IMG/VR virus record: IMGVR_UViG_3300020147_000133
Coordinates: 1 to 45,995 of that record
DNA from: a virus
DNA: 45,995 bases
Reading direction: 5' to 3' (one strand)
Within the stretch, counting starts at the first letter, position 1. Each line of letters begins with the position of its first letter. Below are positions 28,990-45,995 of this stretch, piece after piece. A model generated the notes under the pieces. It was given only the letters and a program-made list of their open reading frames with translations, did not search any database and was not told where the DNA came from. The translations under genes and the position numbers were made by a program.

Positions 28990-29894
28990 CAGGCGGCCCC
29001 TGCGAGAGCGAGCAGGTTGGGAGCCGACGACTCGGCCTCCATCTGCATCAGGTTTTTGACGGCTTGCCGGTAGTAGGCGGGCTTCAGTTCGGACCCGATG
29101 AACCGGCGGTCAGCCTTGAGGGCCGCCCAGCCTTCGGAGCCGATGCCCATGAAGGGCGAGAACACCGTGTCGCCGGGGTTCGTCCAGAGCCGGATGCACC
29201 GCTCGATCAGGTCAAGTTGCAGCGGGCAAAGGTGGCGCTCGTCCTTGTCCTCACGGGCGACCTTCACGTTCAGGACGTCGGTCTGGTTGATATCCATCCA
29301 GACCGGAGAGGCCCATTGCTGCCACATCGACACCGGGAACAGGTTCTTGTCCTGCCCGACCTTGTCGGCCTGGCCCTCGTCTTCCGGCGTCTTGCGGAAG
29401 ATCAGGACGTAGTCGGGCATCCCCTGTCGGTTGCGCGTCGCGTCGGTCTGAATCTGTTTGTAGAGCAGGCCCAGCGCCTTCGTCCGCTGCATCTCGATTA
29501 CCGGGTCTTTCCAGACGGTGATGCGACTATGATAGGTCCAGCCTTCGGCTTCATGGACTTCCCGAATATCGGCGGGGAAGTCGTAGAGACCAACGGTGCC
29601 GTGCGTGCCCTTGGTCCGGGGCAGGTCGGAGCAGTGAACCGCCGTCAGCCGGCCGGGCTTGGTGATGCGGAACTTCTCGCGCACGAGATGGCGGTAGAGT
29701 TCCTTGAACTCGGCCTCATTGGCCACATTGCCCATGTCCCGCTCGCTGTCGCTGTAGACGAACAGGTGAGCGAAGGGCGGGCTGTAGACGGAGAAGCCGA
29801 TCGAGGCGCCCGGCAAGCTGGCGGCGAACTCCACACAATCGGCGTTGACGGCGTAGAAGCGTTCGCCCTGAGCGGCGTCGAGAACCTCGGTCAT
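28989..29894 (-). CDS. DNA methyltransferase, N4-cytosine/N6-adenine type
   Basis: A 301-aa SAM-dependent enzyme. The catalytic motif is SPPF (residues 38-41), a variant of SPPY/DPPY, and the SAM-binding loop VFSPFMGIGSEGW sits near the C-terminus, giving the N-terminal-catalytic order of beta-class enzymes. SPPF favours an exocyclic amino target, possibly N4-cytosine. The ATG at 29894 is chosen for its ATGA overlap with the helicase stop. No restriction nuclease is adjacent, so it is probably an orphan that protects phage DNA or marks promoters. The target sequence cannot be inferred. Confidence 0.85.
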   Translation of the reverse strand: MTEVLDAAQGERFYAVNADCVEFAASLPGASIGFSVYSPPFAHLFVYSDSERDMGNVANEAEFKELYRHLVREKFRITKPGRLTAVHCSDLPRTKGTHGTVGLYDFPADIREVHEAEGWTYHSRITVWKDPVIEMQRTKALGLLYKQIQTDATRNRQGMPDYVLIFRKTPEDEGQADKVGQDKNLFPVSMWQQWASPVWMDINQTDVLNVKVAREDKDERHLCPLQLDLIERCIRLWTNPGDTVFSPFMGIGSEGWAALKADRRFIGSELKPAYYRQAVKNLMQMEAESSAPNLLALAGAA

Positions 29895-31285
29895 GCGGCG
29901 ATCCATTCGGGAAGTTGAAGGGGGACGGTCGGCGCATAGGGCGCTTGCTCGTGAACGATGCGGGCCGCGCGAGCCATGGCGGCGGTCATCTCGCGCTTCA
30001 TGCCCTCGTGGTCGCCCGCCTTGCGGCTCACGACGTTCCAGATGCTTTCCTCAGTGTCGGCGCAGGCGATATGCACATCGACCGGGCGAACCTGGCCGAA
30101 GCGCCAACAACGGCGGATGGCCTGATAGAAGCTTTCGTAGGAGAAGCTGAGGCCGACGAACGCCACGCGGGCGCAGTGCTGCCAGTTCAGACCGAACCCC
30201 GCGACGGACGGCTTGGTGATGATGATGCGCACGGCGCCGGTCGAGAACGCGGTCAGGCGTTCCTCTTTCTGCTCCGGTGTCATCGACCCGCGAACCTCGA
30301 CGGCCTCCGGGATGCGGGCCGTCAGGGCGTCTGCTTCATAGTCGGTGTCACACCAGATGACCCACGGCTCGCCCGGCTCGCGCGCCACCACTTCCGCGAT
30401 CAGGTCCGCGCGGGCGTCGATGGTCTTGCGCTTCTCGCCGTGAATGGCCGTTGCCGAAGTGTCCGGCATACGGAACAACCGCGCCTGCCCGTCTTTCTCG
30501 TGGCCGGTGTCGATCGACCGGTCGGCCGCTACCTTGTGACGTTCCAGGTTGAGCGGAGGCAGGTCGAAGCCGTCATCGGAGAAGCCAAGATCTGACGGCT
30601 TGGAAACGCAACGCGCCCACGACGCCACCCAGTTCCAGAAGTCCTGAACGGCGTGGCCCTTCATGCGCCAGTTGCCGGTGTCGGCGCTGTCGTGAAGGAA
30701 CCAGCGGGTCAACATCTGCGATTGCGACATGGCGCCGAGGAACTGGCTGTGCTGGCCGAGTTCGGCGTGATCGTTCGGCGCCGGGGTGGCGGTGCAGGCC
30801 AGCCGGAAGGGCGTCTTGGCGAAGCCGTCAATCAGGGCGCGCGTCGTCTTGCCGTTGAAGCTCTTGAGGATGCTGCTTTCGTCCAGCACGACGCCGGCGA
30901 ACTGCGCCACGTCGAACTTGCCGAGGCGCTCGTAGTTGGTGATGTAGACGCGGGCGCCGGTGATTTGGTCCGGCTCACGGACGGCTTTCGCGTCGATGCC
31001 GAACTTGACCGCCTCGCGCTCGTGCTGAGCGGCCACGGCGAGGGGGGCCAGCATCAGGACGGGCTTGTTCGAGAACTCGACCACCACCCGGCCCCATTCG
31101 AGGGCGCAGAGCGTCTTGCCGAGGCCGGTGTCGAGGAACATGGCCGAGCAGCCGGTCCGCAGGGCGAAGTCGGTTACATGCGCCTGGTGGGGGTTCATGG
31201 CCGAGTTCAGCGTCGGCACGTTGCCGAGCCCGCGCGCCTCGAACTGGATGCGCTTCGCAGCGATCAGGTCGTGATAGGGCGTCAT
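29891..31285 (-). CDS. SNF2/DEAD-type helicase
   Basis: A 464-aa superfamily 2 ATPase. Motif I is FLDTGLGKT (50-58), motif II is VVLDESSILKS (a DESS version of DEAD), motif III is CTATPAPND, and the C-terminal RecA domain ends with QAIRRCWRFGQ as motif VI. Phage proteins of this SNF2-like group commonly pair with a methyltransferase gene, as here, and help replication or recombination. The start overlaps the upstream stop (ATGA). It has no nuclease domain. Confidence 0.88.
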   Translation of the reverse strand: MTPYHDLIAAKRIQFEARGLGNVPTLNSAMNPHQAHVTDFALRTGCSAMFLDTGLGKTLCALEWGRVVVEFSNKPVLMLAPLAVAAQHEREAVKFGIDAKAVREPDQITGARVYITNYERLGKFDVAQFAGVVLDESSILKSFNGKTTRALIDGFAKTPFRLACTATPAPNDHAELGQHSQFLGAMSQSQMLTRWFLHDSADTGNWRMKGHAVQDFWNWVASWARCVSKPSDLGFSDDGFDLPPLNLERHKVAADRSIDTGHEKDGQARLFRMPDTSATAIHGEKRKTIDARADLIAEVVAREPGEPWVIWCDTDYEADALTARIPEAVEVRGSMTPEQKEERLTAFSTGAVRIIITKPSVAGFGLNWQHCARVAFVGLSFSYESFYQAIRRCWRFGQVRPVDVHIACADTEESIWNVVSRKAGDHEGMKREMTAAMARAARIVHEQAPYAPTVPLQLPEWIAA

Positions 31286-32338: not shown

Positions 32339-33025
32339 CTAGGCGACCCTCCGCAGAGACCGCTCATAGGCCTTGGCGTCTGGGGCGCCGCCGAGACGGG
32401 TCCGGCTGACGGCCCTCGTCCCATGCGCGGCGCAGTAGGTGGGGATGCCCCGGTTCGCGAACAGGTCGACAGGCTGACCGCAGCACATCTGGTTGGCCGG
32501 GCGGTCGGGTTCTCCGACGGGCCAGGAGCACTGCCCGAACCGCCGCTCGAGCAGCAGGATCGCGTCGTCATTGGCCGGGGCCGCGAAGGCGTCGACCAGC
32601 TTCTTCCCGGCCTCGGCGGCGGCGCTGGACCGTTTCAGGGCCTCAGCAGGGTCAAGTGTGGCGACGGGGCCGAACACGGCTCCGGGCTTCAGGTGGGGGC
32701 CTTGTCTTGGCGGGGTCCGCTTGGCTCCCCGAGGGCTGGCCGGGCCAGACCGAACCGGAGGGGCTTTCATGGCCCGCGCCCGGGGCGGCATGGTATCCTG
32801 GACCAACACGCCTTTGCGGACGAAGGTGTAGGTCTTGCGTATCAGCTTCACCCCGTCCAGCCGACTGGCGGCGGTAAGGCCGAGCCTCTGGCATTTGCCG
32901 ATGACCGCGTTTCGGCTGAGGCCCATCTTCGCGGCGATCTGGCTAGCCGAGTGGCCGCTGCGCCAGAGTTGCTCCAGCTGGTCGACGACGCCGGGGGCTT
33001 TCCAGTTGAAGTCATGGACGCTCAT
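32339..33025 (-). CDS. Phage-encoded GcrA-family cell-cycle transcription regulator
   Basis: A 228-aa protein. Residues 8-50 match the GcrA N-terminal HTH (LWRSGHSASQIAAKMGLSRN then AVIGKCQRLGL). The C-terminal 164-206 segment matches the GcrA RNA-polymerase-binding domain with its Cys/His ligands (GQCSWPVGEP, CCGQPV, YCAAHGTRAV). Host GcrA binds sigma70-RNAP and acts at promoters carrying CcrM-methylated GANTC. This copy has a longer basic linker than host GcrA, about 173 aa in Caulobacter. The ATG at 33025 (MSVHDF) overlaps the upstream stop by ATGA and has GGGGG before it. It may tie phage early genes to the host cell cycle or redirect polymerase. Confidence 0.88.
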   Translation of the reverse strand: MSVHDFNWKAPGVVDQLEQLWRSGHSASQIAAKMGLSRNAVIGKCQRLGLTAASRLDGVKLIRKTYTFVRKGVLVQDTMPPRARAMKAPPVRSGPASPRGAKRTPPRQGPHLKPGAVFGPVATLDPAEALKRSSAAAEAGKKLVDAFAAPANDDAILLLERRFGQCSWPVGEPDRPANQMCCGQPVDLFANRGIPTYCAAHGTRAVSRTRLGGAPDAKAYERSLRRVA

Positions 33026-33255
33026 TGGCTTGCCCCCTTCAGGCTGGCATGGGTGAAGTCGTATCGGGCCCGCCGCTCCGCTCCGATCTGGCGACAGACG
33101 CCCCGGCGACGAGCATCGGCCTCCCTGCGCTGGCTCTCCCGGTGAAAGGCGGAGAAGGCGCTCATGGCAGGTACCGGAAGAGGCGCGTCGAAGAGGTCGC
33201 GGTCCCGGACCGGTTCCCTGAAGCATCCGCAGTTACGGCAGCGGGCGTGGGGCAT
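33022..33255 (-). CDS. 77-aa Cys-rich basic protein
   Basis: It starts MPHARCRNCGCF, a CxxCxC cluster suggestive of a metal site, and continues as a very basic helical protein with SAFHRESQRREADARRRG. Its stop overlaps the GcrA start (ATGA). No family recognised; DNA or RNA binding is possible from charge. Confidence 0.6.
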   Translation of the reverse strand: MPHARCRNCGCFREPVRDRDLFDAPLPVPAMSAFSAFHRESQRREADARRRGVCRQIGAERRARYDFTHASLKGASQ

Positions 33256-33256
33256 T

Positions 33257-33658
33257 TCATCCCAGCGCCTTCAGCACGTCGCCAGCCTGGGCGATGGTCT
33301 CCAGCGCCTTGGCGCGGATCGGGCGGGCTTCAGTCTCCGTCACCTTCCCGTCGGCGGTGGCGAGCCGGATCATGCGGCCCATGTCGACGGCGCTCTCGAT
33401 GGTTTCGCTGGCCTCCGTGCCGAGGTCGGCGCGAGGCGCTCCGGTGTCGCCCTTCAGCAGCTCGATGAGGGCCTCCCGCTCCTCGGCGTTCGCCGCCATC
33501 AGGAAGCGATGGAGCGGGATCGTCGTGTCGGGGTGATCGTCGTTCTCGTAGTGGCTGAAGACGCCCGGTGAGACGCCGGCCGCCATCGCGGCGTTGGCGG
33601 TCGACCCCATGCGGAGCCTGATGCGGCGGGTGATGGCCTTGATGACGTGGACGCTCAT
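33257..33658 (-). CDS. HTH protein in CII-like position
   Basis: A 133-aa protein. Residues 5-40 have a helix-turn-helix pattern (MGSTANAAMAAGVSPGVFSH then YENDD), followed by PLHRFLMAANAEEREALIEL and a helical C-terminal half. It lies early in the leftward operon behind cro, the place where lambda-like phages keep CII-type regulators. The start overlaps the previous gene (ATGA). The family is unassigned, so the CII comparison is positional. Confidence 0.6.
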   Translation of the reverse strand: MSVHVIKAITRRIRLRMGSTANAAMAAGVSPGVFSHYENDDHPDTTIPLHRFLMAANAEEREALIELLKGDTGAPRADLGTEASETIESAVDMGRMIRLATADGKVTETEARPIRAKALETIAQAGDVLKALG

Positions 33659-34630: not shown

Positions 34631-34636
34631 GCCGAG

Positions 34637-34706
34637 TAGCTTACCGCGAGTAAGCTAGAATGCAACCCCCTAGCGCACACTCGGTAAGCTTTCTCCCGGT
34701 AAGCTT
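34637..34706. promoter_or_regulatory. Lysis-lysogeny switch: divergent promoters and three operators
   Basis: O1 at 34640-34654 is a perfect CTTAC-CGCGA-GTAAG. O2 at 34674-34688 (CGCAC-ACTCG-GTAAG) and O3 at 34689-34703 (CTTTC-TCCCG-GTAAG) are weaker and lie back to back. The leftward promoter is TTGCAT (34665-34660), 16 bases, TAAGCT (34643-34638), with O1 in the spacer and -10. A matching TAAGCT (34700-34705) lies 8 bases before the cI ATG. Binding by the CI-like or Cro-like protein would cover these promoters. Confidence 0.75.
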
Positions 34707-34713
34707 CCTAACC

Positions 34714-35085
34714 ATGGACACGGGCTGGGAATATCTGGCGGAAGCGCACGAACGGCTTAGGTGGGCCCGGCTTCGCGCGGGCTACGCCACGGCCAAGGCC
34801 GCCTCCGAGTCCCTCGGAATGAAGAAGGACACCTACTCCGCCTATGAGCGCGAGCCGGGGAAGTCGAAGGTGACCGGCCTGGACCACCAGCGCGCAATCC
34901 AGTTCGGGCGGAAGTTCAAGGTGAGTTGGGAGTGGCTTCTGCTTGGCATCGGCTCGCCCTTCAGCGGGGTCCAGACTACCTATCAAGAGCGGGTCATGAC
35001 AGCTATGTCGGACGCGCCCGAGGAAGAACAGGAGCGGATCGCCAAGGCGGTTGAGGCCCTACTCAGGACGGGTACTAACGGATGA
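34714..35085 (+). CDS. CI-like phage repressor (XRE-type HTH)
   Basis: A 123-aa protein with an N-terminal HTH (WEYLAEAHERLRWARLRAGY then TAKAASESLGMKKDTYSAYE) and a short C-terminal helical region (EEEQERIAKAVEALLR). It has no S24 peptidase domain, so induction would not use RecA-driven self-cleavage. The ATG at 34714 has no Shine-Dalgarno; it looks leaderless, as lambda cI is from pRM. An in-frame ATG at 34660 lies inside the operators and is less likely. It diverges from cro and likely maintains lysogeny. Confidence 0.82.
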   Translation: MDTGWEYLAEAHERLRWARLRAGYATAKAASESLGMKKDTYSAYEREPGKSKVTGLDHQRAIQFGRKFKVSWEWLLLGIGSPFSGVQTTYQERVMTAMSDAPEEEQERIAKAVEALLRTGTNG

Positions 35086-35561
35086 TGATCGCGGTCCTGG
35101 TTCTGGCGCTTGTCGCGCCGGACTACCTGACGGAGGTTGTCGGAGAGCCGATCACCACGACTGGCACGACGGCGGAGATCGCCACGCGAGCCGAGGCGTG
35201 CGCGGCGCAGACACTGAACGCTGGCGCTGACGAGGGGCCCGTGATCCTTTCTAGCGACCCGGCCTCTGGTGTCGTGGTGGCCCGCAACTCCCTCGAATAC
35301 CGAGATGGCCTGCTGCCGTGGCGGATGCGCAGCCGGATCACCATAGAGGCCCGCGACGGTCGGTTCAGGATTCGCCACTCGGCGATAGAGCGGCACGACG
35401 ATCAGTCGTTCGGCGCGCAGGTGCTTGGCGCCTCCCCGTGGGCGCCGGTCGGCAAATGGCGGGGTTCCGGCTGGCAGAAGGCCGAGGCTGCGCTTCAGGA
35501 AACCTCCCGCTCGCTGGCGGCCTGCATCACCTCCAGCGGGCCGTCGTCCGACGATTGGTGA
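35082..35561 (+). CDS. Exported protein co-transcribed with the repressor
   Basis: A 159-aa protein with a signal-peptide-like start (MMIAVLVLALVAP) and a beta-rich body (WRMRSRITIEARDGRFRIRH), resembling the DUF4468/TBP-like fold, ending in a Ser-rich tail. The ATG overlaps the repressor stop (ATGA), so it should be made in the lysogen. That makes it a candidate for lysogenic conversion or superinfection exclusion at the envelope. The function is inferred from location only. Confidence 0.7.
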   Translation: MMIAVLVLALVAPDYLTEVVGEPITTTGTTAEIATRAEACAAQTLNAGADEGPVILSSDPASGVVVARNSLEYRDGLLPWRMRSRITIEARDGRFRIRHSAIERHDDQSFGAQVLGASPWAPVGKWRGSGWQKAEAALQETSRSLAACITSSGPSSDDW

Positions 35562-35770
35562 TCGGCCGGCGCGAACACCTTGACCAGGTGTGGCGCCCAT
35601 CCAGCGGTCTGATCGCCCACGACCCGAACGACCCTGACGCGACGCCTGCGCACGGCTAACCGGCGCCCGGCGCGTAGGGCCGCACCTCGATCATCGAACT
35701 GCTGAACGTGGGTCAGGACCGATTGCGCGCCCCGCCGCCATGTCGCCTCTACGCTGTAGAACTCGGTCAC
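35495..35770 (-). CDS. 91-aa basic protein convergent to the repressor operon
   Basis: A GTG at 35770 follows GGAG at suitable spacing and starts MTEFYSVEATWRRGAQSVLT, followed by an Arg-rich helix (RAGRRLAVRRRRVRVVRVVG). It resembles small alphaproteobacterial proteins of similar build, but I cannot name a family. An ATG at 35803 gives 11 more residues. Its 3' end overlaps the exported-protein gene by 67 bases on the opposite strand. Function unknown. Confidence 0.5.
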   Translation of the reverse strand: MTEFYSVEATWRRGAQSVLTHVQQFDDRGAALRAGRRLAVRRRRVRVVRVVGDQTAGWAPHLVKVFAPADHQSSDDGPLEVMQAASEREVS

Positions 35771-35863
35771 GCGAACCACTCCAATCCTTAGCGCCAGATG
35801 CACGCCGAGGCCGCGCCGAGTCGAGTCCCCGGCGCCGGCGCGCGTCCAAAAGTGGCGGAACGG

Positions 35864-35914
35864 CTTACAGTGCGTAAGTTTTCGCTTGCAATGCGGATTA
35901 CTGGCGGTAAGCTA
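35864..35914 (+). promoter_or_regulatory. Right operon promoter with two repressor operators
   Basis: O4 at 35864-35878 is a perfect CTTAC-AGTGC-GTAAG and O5 at 35897-35911 is ATTAC-TGGCG-GTAAG. The promoter TTGCAA (35886-35891), 16 bases, TAAGCT (35908-35913) carries O5 across its spacer and -10. It is almost identical to the cro promoter module. Two tandem GAGTC sites lie just upstream (35818-35827). The CI-like protein would silence the recombination operon here in the lysogen. Confidence 0.75.
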
Positions 35915-35937
35915 CTCCCAACGAACGGGAGACACCC

Positions 35938-36279
35938 ATGCCTTCACCGACCATCACCCCGACCGAAGCCCGCGACCAGCTGAACTGGCTGCGCGGCTGC
36001 ACCGACGTCGGGACCGAAGCCCGCAAGTCTGAACTGCGCCGGGTCCTCGCCGCCGCCGATGAGGTCGAGGAAACCGACCCGGGAAAGATGCTCAAGACGG
36101 CCGACTGGCTGGAGCGCATCGCCGCCGAGCACGAAGCGAACGGCAAGGCCCACCAGGCCGAAGAGAACCGGGAGATCGCCGCGCGGTATCGGCGGTGTGC
36201 TGCCCGGGCGATGGCCCCCGCGAACACCCTGCACCCGATCTTCGCGGACATCCTCAAGCCTCGGAGGGCGGCGGCATGA
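35938..36279 (+). CDS. First gene of right operon, helical hypothetical protein
   Basis: A 113-aa highly helical, charged protein (LRRVLAAADEVEETDPGKML, WLERIAAEHEANGKAHQAEE). The ATG follows GGGAGA. It is the promoter-proximal gene of the rightward early operon, a place often used for host-takeover or anti-defence proteins. No family recognised. Confidence 0.7.
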   Translation: MPSPTITPTEARDQLNWLRGCTDVGTEARKSELRRVLAAADEVEETDPGKMLKTADWLERIAAEHEANGKAHQAEENREIAARYRRCAARAMAPANTLHPIFADILKPRRAAA

Positions 36280-38876: not shown

Positions 38877-38957
38877 GTGGAGCCCGCCTTCGCCATCCTG
38901 ATCATGGCCATCGCGCTGCTGATCATCCTTTCGAGCACGAACCGGAGAGAGCCGTGA
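38877..38957 (+). CDS. 26-aa membrane micropeptide
   Basis: A GTG one base after the previous stop starts MEPAFAILIMAIALLIILSS then TNRREP. It is a bare membrane helix with a basic end. Its TGA overlaps the GTG of the annealase gene (GTGA). Such position-perfect overlap argues for translation, but its size keeps confidence moderate. Confidence 0.5.
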   Translation: MEPAFAILIMAIALLIILSSTNRREP

Positions 38958-39700
38958 CCAAAGCTCCTGCCAACGATGAAGCCGCCCCGGTGACGGGCCT
39001 CGCCCTGTTGCGTCAGCCGTTTCCGGCGCACCAGATCAGCAAGCTCCCGAAGGAGACCAAGGCGCAGATCGACGAACGCAAAGCCAATCGGTCCGCTGGC
39101 GTGTCCTGCAAGGTCTGCGGCGGCTGGCACCACAAGAACGCGGTGCACCTGGATTACGTCGGCCATGCGGCCCTGACGGACCGGCTGCTGGACGTTGACC
39201 CGGAATGGTCATGGGAGCCCGCCGCGCTGCGAGACGGACTGCCGGCGTTCGACGCCAGCGGCGGCCTCTGGATCAAGCTGACGGTCTGCGGTGTGTCCCG
39301 GCTGGGCTACGGCCATGCCGCCGCCAAGCCGCAGATGGACCCCGGCGCGCGCGAGAAGGAAGTCATCGGGGACGCCCTGCGGAATGCCGCCATGCGCTTC
39401 GGCGCCGCACTGGACCTCTGGCACAAAGGCGACCTGCACGCTGCCGAAGAGGCAGAGGCGGAGAAGCCGAAAGAGGATGTTGGCAGCGCAGCCGCCGACT
39501 TCGCCATCGGCACTCTGCGGACGTGCGCCAGCCTCGCCGAACTGGCCGAGTTCTGGGCGAAGAATGCCAAGGGGCTGAAGGCCGACCTGAGCGCCGCTGA
39601 CTTCGCTCGGGTCGAGAAGGCCAAGGACGACGAGAAGGCCCGGCTGACGCCCGCCGACGACGGCTTCCCCGGCGACATTCCGATGGATGAAGCGGCATGA
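38954..39700 (+). CDS. Rad52/Sak-like single-strand annealing protein
   Basis: A 248-aa recombinase that would pair complementary single strands during phage recombination. Residues 65-155 carry the Rad52/DdrA pattern: YVGHAALTDRLLDVDPEWSW, a beta sheet (WIKLTVCGVSRLGYG) and GDALRNAAMRFGAALDLW. A CKVCGGWHH near residue 52 may bind zinc. The C-terminus is acidic (FPGDIPMDEAA), as in proteins that bind SSB-type partners. The start is a GTG coupled to the micropeptide stop. It is followed by NinB and other recombination genes. Confidence 0.82.
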   Translation: MTKAPANDEAAPVTGLALLRQPFPAHQISKLPKETKAQIDERKANRSAGVSCKVCGGWHHKNAVHLDYVGHAALTDRLLDVDPEWSWEPAALRDGLPAFDASGGLWIKLTVCGVSRLGYGHAAAKPQMDPGAREKEVIGDALRNAAMRFGAALDLWHKGDLHAAEEAEAEKPKEDVGSAAADFAIGTLRTCASLAELAEFWAKNAKGLKADLSAADFARVEKAKDDEKARLTPADDGFPGDIPMDEAA

Positions 39701-44756: not shown

Positions 44757-45075
44757 CCACATTCTGACATTCGATGAAGCCGCCGCGCTTCTCAAGGTCG
44801 GGGAACACACCTTGCGCGGCCTCATCGCCAGTGGTTCGCTCCGTGCCGCCAAGATCGGCCGGCAGTGGCGCATCCGGTCTGACGACGTGAATGCCTGTCT
44901 GGAGGCTCTATGCTCTACAAGCGCGGCGAATTCTGGCACTACGACTTCACCGTCAATGACCGCCGATACCGGGCCTCGACAAAGCTCCATCGTAAGGCTG
45001 CGGCCCAGATCGCAGAGGACCGCGCCAGGGAAGCCGCGATCCTGGGATCATCTGATCGTCCGATCCCCACGATAG
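44737..45075 (+). CDS. Excisionase-type HTH protein
   Basis: The first 62 residues are a MerR-like winged HTH (ILTFDEAAALLKVGEHTLRG then KIGRQWRIRSDDV) as found in Xis proteins. The next 50 residues continue in a frame that overlaps the integrase start and are Ser/Arg/Pro-rich, probably disordered. The ATG follows AGGAGG. It would direct excision together with the integrase. The unusual overlap is 166 bases. Confidence 0.78.
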   Translation: MTAANDNHILTFDEAAALLKVGEHTLRGLIASGSLRAAKIGRQWRIRSDDVNACLEALCSTSAANSGTTTSPSMTADTGPRQSSIVRLRPRSQRTAPGKPRSWDHLIVRSPR

Positions 45076-45995
45076 AACAGGCGGCGGACGCGTGGTTTGC
45101 CGCCAACCGCGCGGGAAGCCGGTCCGAGGTCACGACGGCCCAGCGATTGAATATCATGCTGCGGCTGATCGGGACTGACACGCCGGTAAACCGGATCGAC
45201 GCGCCAGAGATCGCGGAGGCAATCGCCACACGCCGGGTAGAGACGACCCGGCAGGGCCGGGCGCCCGCCAACGCGACCGTCAACAGGGATCTGATCGACA
45301 CGACCCTGCGGCCTATTTTGACCTACGCCAAGGAGATCATGAAGGCGCCCGTCAATGACATTCCCTGGAAAGCCCTGCGGCTGAAGGAGCCGCCCGAGCG
45401 GGACCGGGCTTTCACCCAGGCCGAGCTGACTTCATGGCGCGCGGCCCTTCCTGAATGGCACCGGGCCGTTTTCGACTTTGCCGCCCGCTACGGTGTCCGG
45501 TTGCGCGAGGCGTTCTTTCCGCCCGACTGTTACGATGCGGCAACCGGGACAGTGTTCCTGCGCCTGCGGAAAAACGGCAAGCCACACGCCATCCGCCTCT
45601 TGCCCGACGATGCCGCCGACATGACCGCTCGCTATGGGCGGGCCGTGGCCGCCGATCTCGATACGGTATGGTTCAAGGAGACGAAGGGCGGACTCGCCCC
45701 GATCCGCTGGCGGGGGTTCCAATCAGCCTCCCGCAAGGCGCTGGACCGGGCGGGGATCACCGGAGCTCGTCCGGCTCACGATTTGCGCCACCATGCGGCT
45801 ACAACCGTCCTGCGACAGACCGGGAATCTCGCCGCGGTGAAGCGGCTCCTCGGGCACGAGGACATCGCCTCTACGATGCGCTACGCCCACGCCGACGACG
45901 ACGACGTGCACGAGGCTCTGCGTCACACCTATGGCACAAAACCGCCTGAGGCGCAGAAAAGACGAAAGAAAACAAAGGTCGTCACCGGAACCTAA
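44910..45995 (+). CDS. Tyrosine-type site-specific recombinase (integrase)
   Basis: A 361-aa integrase that would insert and excise the prophage. The N-terminal part has a short strand pair (YKRGEFWHYDFTVNDRRYRA) and a helical core-binding domain near 55-150. The catalytic domain shows Arg197 in GVRLRE, His290 and Arg293 in HDLRH, His316 in LLGHED and the nucleophile Tyr325 in MRYAHA. All key residues are present. The stop codon is the last three bases of the window, so attR would lie just outside. Confidence 0.93.
   Translation: MLYKRGEFWHYDFTVNDRRYRASTKLHRKAAAQIAEDRAREAAILGSSDRPIPTIEQAADAWFAANRAGSRSEVTTAQRLNIMLRLIGTDTPVNRIDAPEIAEAIATRRVETTRQGRAPANATVNRDLIDTTLRPILTYAKEIMKAPVNDIPWKALRLKEPPERDRAFTQAELTSWRAALPEWHRAVFDFAARYGVRLREAFFPPDCYDAATGTVFLRLRKNGKPHAIRLLPDDAADMTARYGRAVAADLDTVWFKETKGGLAPIRWRGFQSASRKALDRAGITGARPAHDLRHHAATTVLRQTGNLAAVKRLLGHEDIASTMRYAHADDDDVHEALRHTYGTKPPEAQKRRKKTKVVTGT

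Follow-up and report, generated by a model that had tools for sequence, protein, structure and literature searches.

A probable mirror-image immunity region of lambda type, with matching operators at two lytic promoters and a predicted single short repressor, in environmental temperate phages

Introduction

In phage lambda, cI lies between two lytic promoters, the divergent cI and cro genes are separated by operators, and the same operators recur at the second lytic promoter beyond cI, with three sites at each. The lambda cI transcript is leaderless. Among alphaproteobacterial temperate phages, Rhizobium phage 16-3 carries left and right operators for one repressor, C; these are of the ACAA-TTGT type and differ in sequence and half-site spacing from the operators reported below. 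In CP-933P, a prophage of E. coli O157:H7, the −35 and −10 elements of PL are identical to those of PR, and PaaR2 and its Cro analogue YdaS each repress PL; the repressor gene paaR2 is leaderless (PMC8630535). The Gifsy phages have non-cleaved lambdoid repressors that are inactivated by antirepressors (PMC3121763).

We analysed a window of 45,995 nucleotides, the whole of IMG/VR virus record IMGVR_UViG_3300020147_000133. Its gene order mirrors that of lambda, with cI between two lytic promoters, a gene in the rex position, cro, a CII-like gene (a weak match) and replication genes on one arm, recombination and integration genes on the other, operators between the divergent cI and cro genes and again at the lytic promoter beyond cI, and a cI transcript that is predicted to be leaderless. 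The window also resembles CP-933P, in that its pL has −35 and −10 elements like those of pR (−10 TAAGCT in both), a repressor and a Cro analogue would act at both promoters, the repressor gene is predicted to be leaderless, and its Cro matches Pfam YdaS weakly (E 0.018, under cutoff). The comparison covers the promoters, the roles of the two proteins and the Cro match. CP-933P differs in that its inverted repeats are 18 bp long, with four at PR/PRM and three at OL, and in that toxin-antitoxin genes follow its repressor (PMC8630535). Here we describe an immunity region that is very probably a bipartite, mirrored counterpart of that of lambda, in which one short CI-like repressor would act on shared operators at both lytic promoters.

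Results

Gene layout

Principal features are listed in Table 1. Further minus-strand genes comprise methylase-like ORFs and genes for primase/helicase, terminase, portal, head and tail; the right operon, which begins at 35938, also encodes an exonuclease-like protein and NinB. The ORF in the rex position has, by eye, a signal-peptide-like N-terminus. The GcrA-like protein is a phage-encoded cell-cycle regulator sitting in the lytic operon, and its presence suggests that the host is probably alphaproteobacterial.

Table 1 Features of the immunity region and flanking genes (window coordinates, except the last two rows, which use those of the relatives' contigs).
Feature	Position	Strand	Sequence or description
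Helicase	29891-31285	minus	
GcrA-like protein, lytic operon	32339-33226	minus	Pfam PF07750, E 1.2e-16
CII-like regulator, cro operon	33257-33658	minus	phrog_101, E 2.3e-6, weak
cro-like gene, 74 aa	34406-34630	minus	ORF; Cro profile match; predicted leaderless
pR	34634-34665	minus	−35 TTGCAT (34665-34660), 16 nt, −10 TAAGCT (34643-34638)
Module copy, cro side	34665-34634	minus	TTGCATTCTAGCTTACTCGCGGTAAGCTACTC
O1 (OR1)	34640-34654		CTTACCGCGAGTAAG; overlaps pR spacer and −10
O2 (OR2)	34674-34688		CGCACACTCGGTAAG; one good half-site; 34 bp from O1
O3 (OR3)	34689-34703		CTTTCTCCCGGTAAG; overlaps predicted pRM −10
pRM, predicted −10	34700-34705		TAAGCT; without clear −35
cI-like repressor, 123 aa	34714-35085	plus	XRE helix-turn-helix and two C-terminal helices
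ORF in lambda rex position	35082-35561	plus	overlaps cI end
O4 (OL upstream site)	35864-35878		CTTACAGTGCGTAAG; perfect operator, upstream of right promoter
pL	35886-35917	plus	−35 TTGCAA (35886-35891), 16 nt, −10 TAAGCT (35908-35913)
Module copy, right-operon side	35886-35917	plus	TTGCAATGCGGATTACTGGCGGTAAGCTACTC
O5 (OL promoter site)	35897-35911		ATTACTGGCGGTAAG; overlaps pL spacer and −10
Leader hairpin	35915-35931	plus	CTCCC-AACGAAC-GGGAG; 3' arm: Shine-Dalgarno for the first right-operon gene
First right-operon gene	35938-36279	plus	
Single-strand annealing protein, right operon	38954-39700	plus	phrog_3290, E 4.7e-50
Tyrosine integrase, end of right operon	44910-45995	plus	phrog_1, E 3.5e-33
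Left-right duplicated sites, distant phage L017	6658-6698 and 8093-8133		
Left-right duplicated sites, distant phage L100	5916-5967 and 7141-7178		

A repeated module within a set of five operators

The first-pass annotation had described a 32-nt module, TTGCA-N7-TTACT-N-GCGGTAAGCTACTC, with one copy before cro and one before the right operon, and both segments were exact as written. Alignment of the two copies gave 26 matching bases out of 32 (81%), and the claimed identity over −35, operator and −10 held, with the N7 spacer dissimilar between the copies. The full pattern occurred twice in the window (0 expected); when the cro-cI intergenic region was compared with the rest of the window, the next-best match was 21/32, and the top match in 60 dinucleotide-shuffled windows was 23/32, versus 26/32 for the real pair. 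The module proved to belong to a larger set that had been overlooked, namely five CTTAC-N5-GTAAG operators, with extra sites upstream of the right promoter (O4) and before cI (O2 and O3).

The operators are 15-bp palindromes with an N5 centre. The cro-cI interval (OR) holds three of them, spaced 34/15 bp, and the region preceding the right operon (OL) holds two, 33 bp apart. We built a scoring matrix from the OL pair (35864 and 35897), which thereby defines it, and ran it over the window; the four top scores in 46 kb were those of O4 (16.9), O1 (16.9), O5 (15.5) and O3 (12.8). O2 scored 8.7, the level of several chance sites, and is counted as an operator on account of its position, which is conserved in relatives.

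Promoters and start codons

A consensus promoter scan found no sigma-70 site in the region because the boxes are a TTGC-type −35 and a TAAxxT −10. In the relatives, pR and pL likewise have TTGC-type −35 boxes in most phages, followed after 16-18 nt by a TAAxxT −10, and the right operator half-site lies inside this −10, TAA plus the next base being common to both. The cro ATG is 7 nt past the pR −10 in the window, and cI starts 8 nt past the pRM −10; the corresponding distance is 6-8 nt for cro in 18 of 19 phages and for cI in all 16 phages with O3 placed, the L003 hexamer not being −10-like. These short distances suggest that the cro and cI transcripts are probably leaderless. In C. crescentus, 375 leaderless mRNAs have been described (PMC4117421).

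Concerted operator change in relatives

Relatives were gathered by IMG/VR scans with CI and the annealing protein, plus tblastn against phages. Those sharing the window-type cI have the same layout; most are IMG/VR contigs, and two are isolates (Ruegeria phage 45A6 and Synechococcus phage Yong-M3-232). Half-sites are GTAAG in the window, L085, L087 and L095 (mixed with GTCAG in L003) and GTAAC in L004, L076, L078, L086, L088, L090, L091, L093, L094 and L098 (mixed with GTAAT in L092); others include GTAAT/C (L079), GTATC (L080, L083) and GTAGC (L097).

In 25 phages, we scored the 170 nt preceding cI against the 1500 nt that follow its stop codon, with sites not preselected. The mean score of own left against own right regions was 17.5, compared with 12.2 against the right regions of other phages (n = 25), and none of 100,000 permutations reached the observed left-right sum. 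Similarly, a matrix from right-operon sites only located the cro-cI sites in most phages. The left-site spacing of 33-34 plus 15 bp recurred in 11 of 24 phages, and the two right-operon sites were separated by 32-37 bp in 19 phages or, in the four distant ones, by 23-30 bp. The OL-OR distance, over which any repressor-mediated loop of the lambda kind would form, is 1.25 kb in the window and about 0.5 kb in L078. The right-operon sites of L078, L093 and L099 were entered off register, so their rows are weaker than possible, and some operator sites in L095-L099 are not clear. These results support the earlier reading of a pR/pL pair, since phage-specific operators at the two promoters match each other across the 25 phages. 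That both operator sets changed together in about two dozen relatives strongly suggests that a single repressor (and a single Cro) controls both sides.

L004 and the window are 96% identical in the helicase and 94% in the methylase, yet share only about half of their CI residues, and the operators of L004, unlike those of the window, are GTAAC-type on both sides; on this sequence comparison, the immunity region is replaced inside one phage group.

Many GTAAC-phage operators are head-to-tail GTAAC-N5-GTAAC sites, not palindromes, at the same positions (L004 7568-7631 and 8524-8571, L076 7391-7438, L086 and L098). The distant phages L017 and L100 have unrelated operators (GATGCA..TGCATC and TACGCA..TGCGTA), with the same left-right duplication at 23-26 bp spacing.

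CI and Cro

The window CI is predicted to fold into an XRE helix-turn-helix and two further helices (AlphaFold mean pLDDT 91.9), and an S24 peptidase domain was absent from its 123 residues in both the domain search and the predicted structure (helices only). Its Foldseek neighbours were weak (none with E <0.05) and included C.Csp231I, SinR, P22 c2 and a Salmonella temperate phage repressor solved with its antirepressor; genome scans with CI gave no cellular matches. As in the Gifsy phages, this repressor would not be inactivated by self-cleavage, judging from the missing domain, and an antirepressor is therefore a more likely induction route than RecA cleavage. A related repressor in L003 (5998-6777), 48% identical to the window repressor across the N-terminal part, has an S24-like C-terminal domain that is missing in the window CI and most relatives.

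A Cro profile built from seven family members matched P22 Cro (1rzs) and other phage Cro chains. The window Cro also scored 33.4 of 38 bits against the NCBIfam carph-isopro domain, just under cutoff.

Position 42 of CI and position 29 of Cro are the same helix position, both within the predicted recognition helices. Most GTAAC phages have R there, and GTAAG phages have serine or some other non-basic residue: at CI position 42, S occurs in all five GTAAG phages and 1 of 17 others, and Cro position 29 is non-basic in the same proportions (Fisher p 2.3e-4 for each, kinship ignored). These residues are thus associated with operator type; the association is suggestive only because the Fisher test ignores kinship and the CI tree has about three independent changes, on which a tree-based sign test is underpowered. 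Such covariation would fit, indirectly, with CI and Cro each binding OL as well as OR, as in the lambda switch.

A hairpin in the right-operon leader

The 5' arm of the leader hairpin in the window lies between the −10 and the predicted pL start site (about 35920-35921). In the hairpins of about 20 related pL leaders, the 5' arm in most begins near the end of the −10 and reaches +6 to +8, mostly before the predicted start site as calibrated from cro and cI (7-8 nt past −10); the hairpin is not present in the L095 leader. Folding the leader alignment to a consensus yielded no pairs, as MAFFT had misaligned stems of unequal length, and a self-versus-cross duplex test was used in its place. The arms covary: across 20 phages, own 5' and 3' arms paired better than crossed ones (0 of 100,000 permutations), the margin over shuffled arms was wide (−207 against −118, sd 9), and most single-phage z-scores fell between −2 and −4.

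OL lies at most 45 nt from the cI stop in several phages, and a terminator-like site was not found between them. The likeliest role for the hairpin is to block translation of cI read-through transcripts, in which alone it probably forms; the main alternative is that the leader palindrome acts at the DNA level for another protein. Transcripts initiated at pL would be without the 5' arm and therefore translated, and lysogen read-through from cI would hide the ribosome site. We consider it an evenly balanced proposal that pL carries such a translational insulator, with the Shine-Dalgarno hidden in cI read-through and free in pL transcripts. A mechanism of this kind has been proposed for B. subtilis sigG, where the hairpin is predicted only in upstream-promoter transcripts (PMC5942855).

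Discussion

We propose that a short CI-like repressor holds pR and pL off through the same 15-bp operators, three sites between cro and cI serving as OR and two before the recombination/integration operon as OL. At pR and pL alike, one operator lies on the spacer and −10 and a second 33-34 bp upstream, just beyond the −35, so that a dimer on each would bracket the −35. In OR, O3 adjoins O2 and covers the predicted cI promoter; bound there, CI could repress its own gene and Cro could shut cI off. Cro, expressed from pR, would compete for the same sites; protein binding and the order of occupancy are predictions of this model. The TAAGCT −10 contains the right half-site, and operator changes between phages would therefore fall mostly in tolerant −10 positions; −10 variants among the phages are TAAGCT, TAACGT, TAATCT and TATCGT.

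The 81% identity over 32 nt within one genome might be expected of a recent duplication or gene conversion without a shared regulator. That identity, however, is limited to −35, operator and −10, with differing spacer and flanks; the perfect operator O4 lies beyond the promoter, and in relatives the match persists across different sequences and intervening lengths of about 0 to 1000 nt. We therefore reject neutral duplication, which is extremely unlikely. Least probable of all is that the likeness reflects only a shared sigma-factor promoter consensus, with no operator involved. The matched bases do take in the −35 and −10, the latter with the right half-site embedded in it, but self matches exceed non-self matches although the promoter type is common to all relatives, which led us to reject pure promoter similarity; furthermore, O4 and O2 are palindromic sites that lie beyond the core promoters, and the half-sites differ in step with the recognition helices of CI and Cro.

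CI and Cro are inseparable by sequence as the cause of the concerted change, and both would track the same operators, so that only one of them might act at the right operon, with the lysogenic repressor confined to pR and another factor silencing pL. This division of labour is very unlikely, as the OL scores (16.9 and 15.5) are on a par with that of the best OR site (16.9), and both proteins repress PL in CP-933P (PMC8630535). The earlier prediction of one repressor shared by both operons is, in contrast to these alternatives, well supported by the operator match, the right-site matrix and the CI and Cro helix residues.

The accompanying claim that the switch does not look like that of lambda failed for the layout, which is lambda in mirror image. 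It stood for several specifics: the short repressor is without the C-terminal S24/LexA-like domain for self-cleavage and dimer contact; there are three OR but two OL sites, as opposed to three at each in lambda; the sites are spaced 34/15 and 33 bp, a pair of them lying on either side of the −35; the 15-bp palindromes have an N5 centre and a half-site within the −10; and cro, too, is probably leaderless. These comparisons strongly support an OL/OR switch of lambda type with a geometry of its own (3+2 operators, spaced 34/15 and 33-35 bp). As read from its sequence, the switch would work like that of lambda, but its repressor is not of the lambda CI type.

The leader hairpin would explain in concrete terms why a lytic operon that directly follows cI stays silent in a lysogen. 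If true, the insulator, together with −10-embedded operators that switch along with CI and Cro, would constitute a distinct and widespread design in which a terminator between cI and the lytic operon is unneeded.

These findings extend the OL/OR logic of lambda to little-studied environmental temperate phages, probably of alphaproteobacteria. They provide about two dozen natural switches in which the repressor, Cro and both operator sets appear to have changed specificity together, a panel from which cross-immunity groups are likely to be readable from sequence and which makes repressor-operator co-evolution testable with natural proteins.
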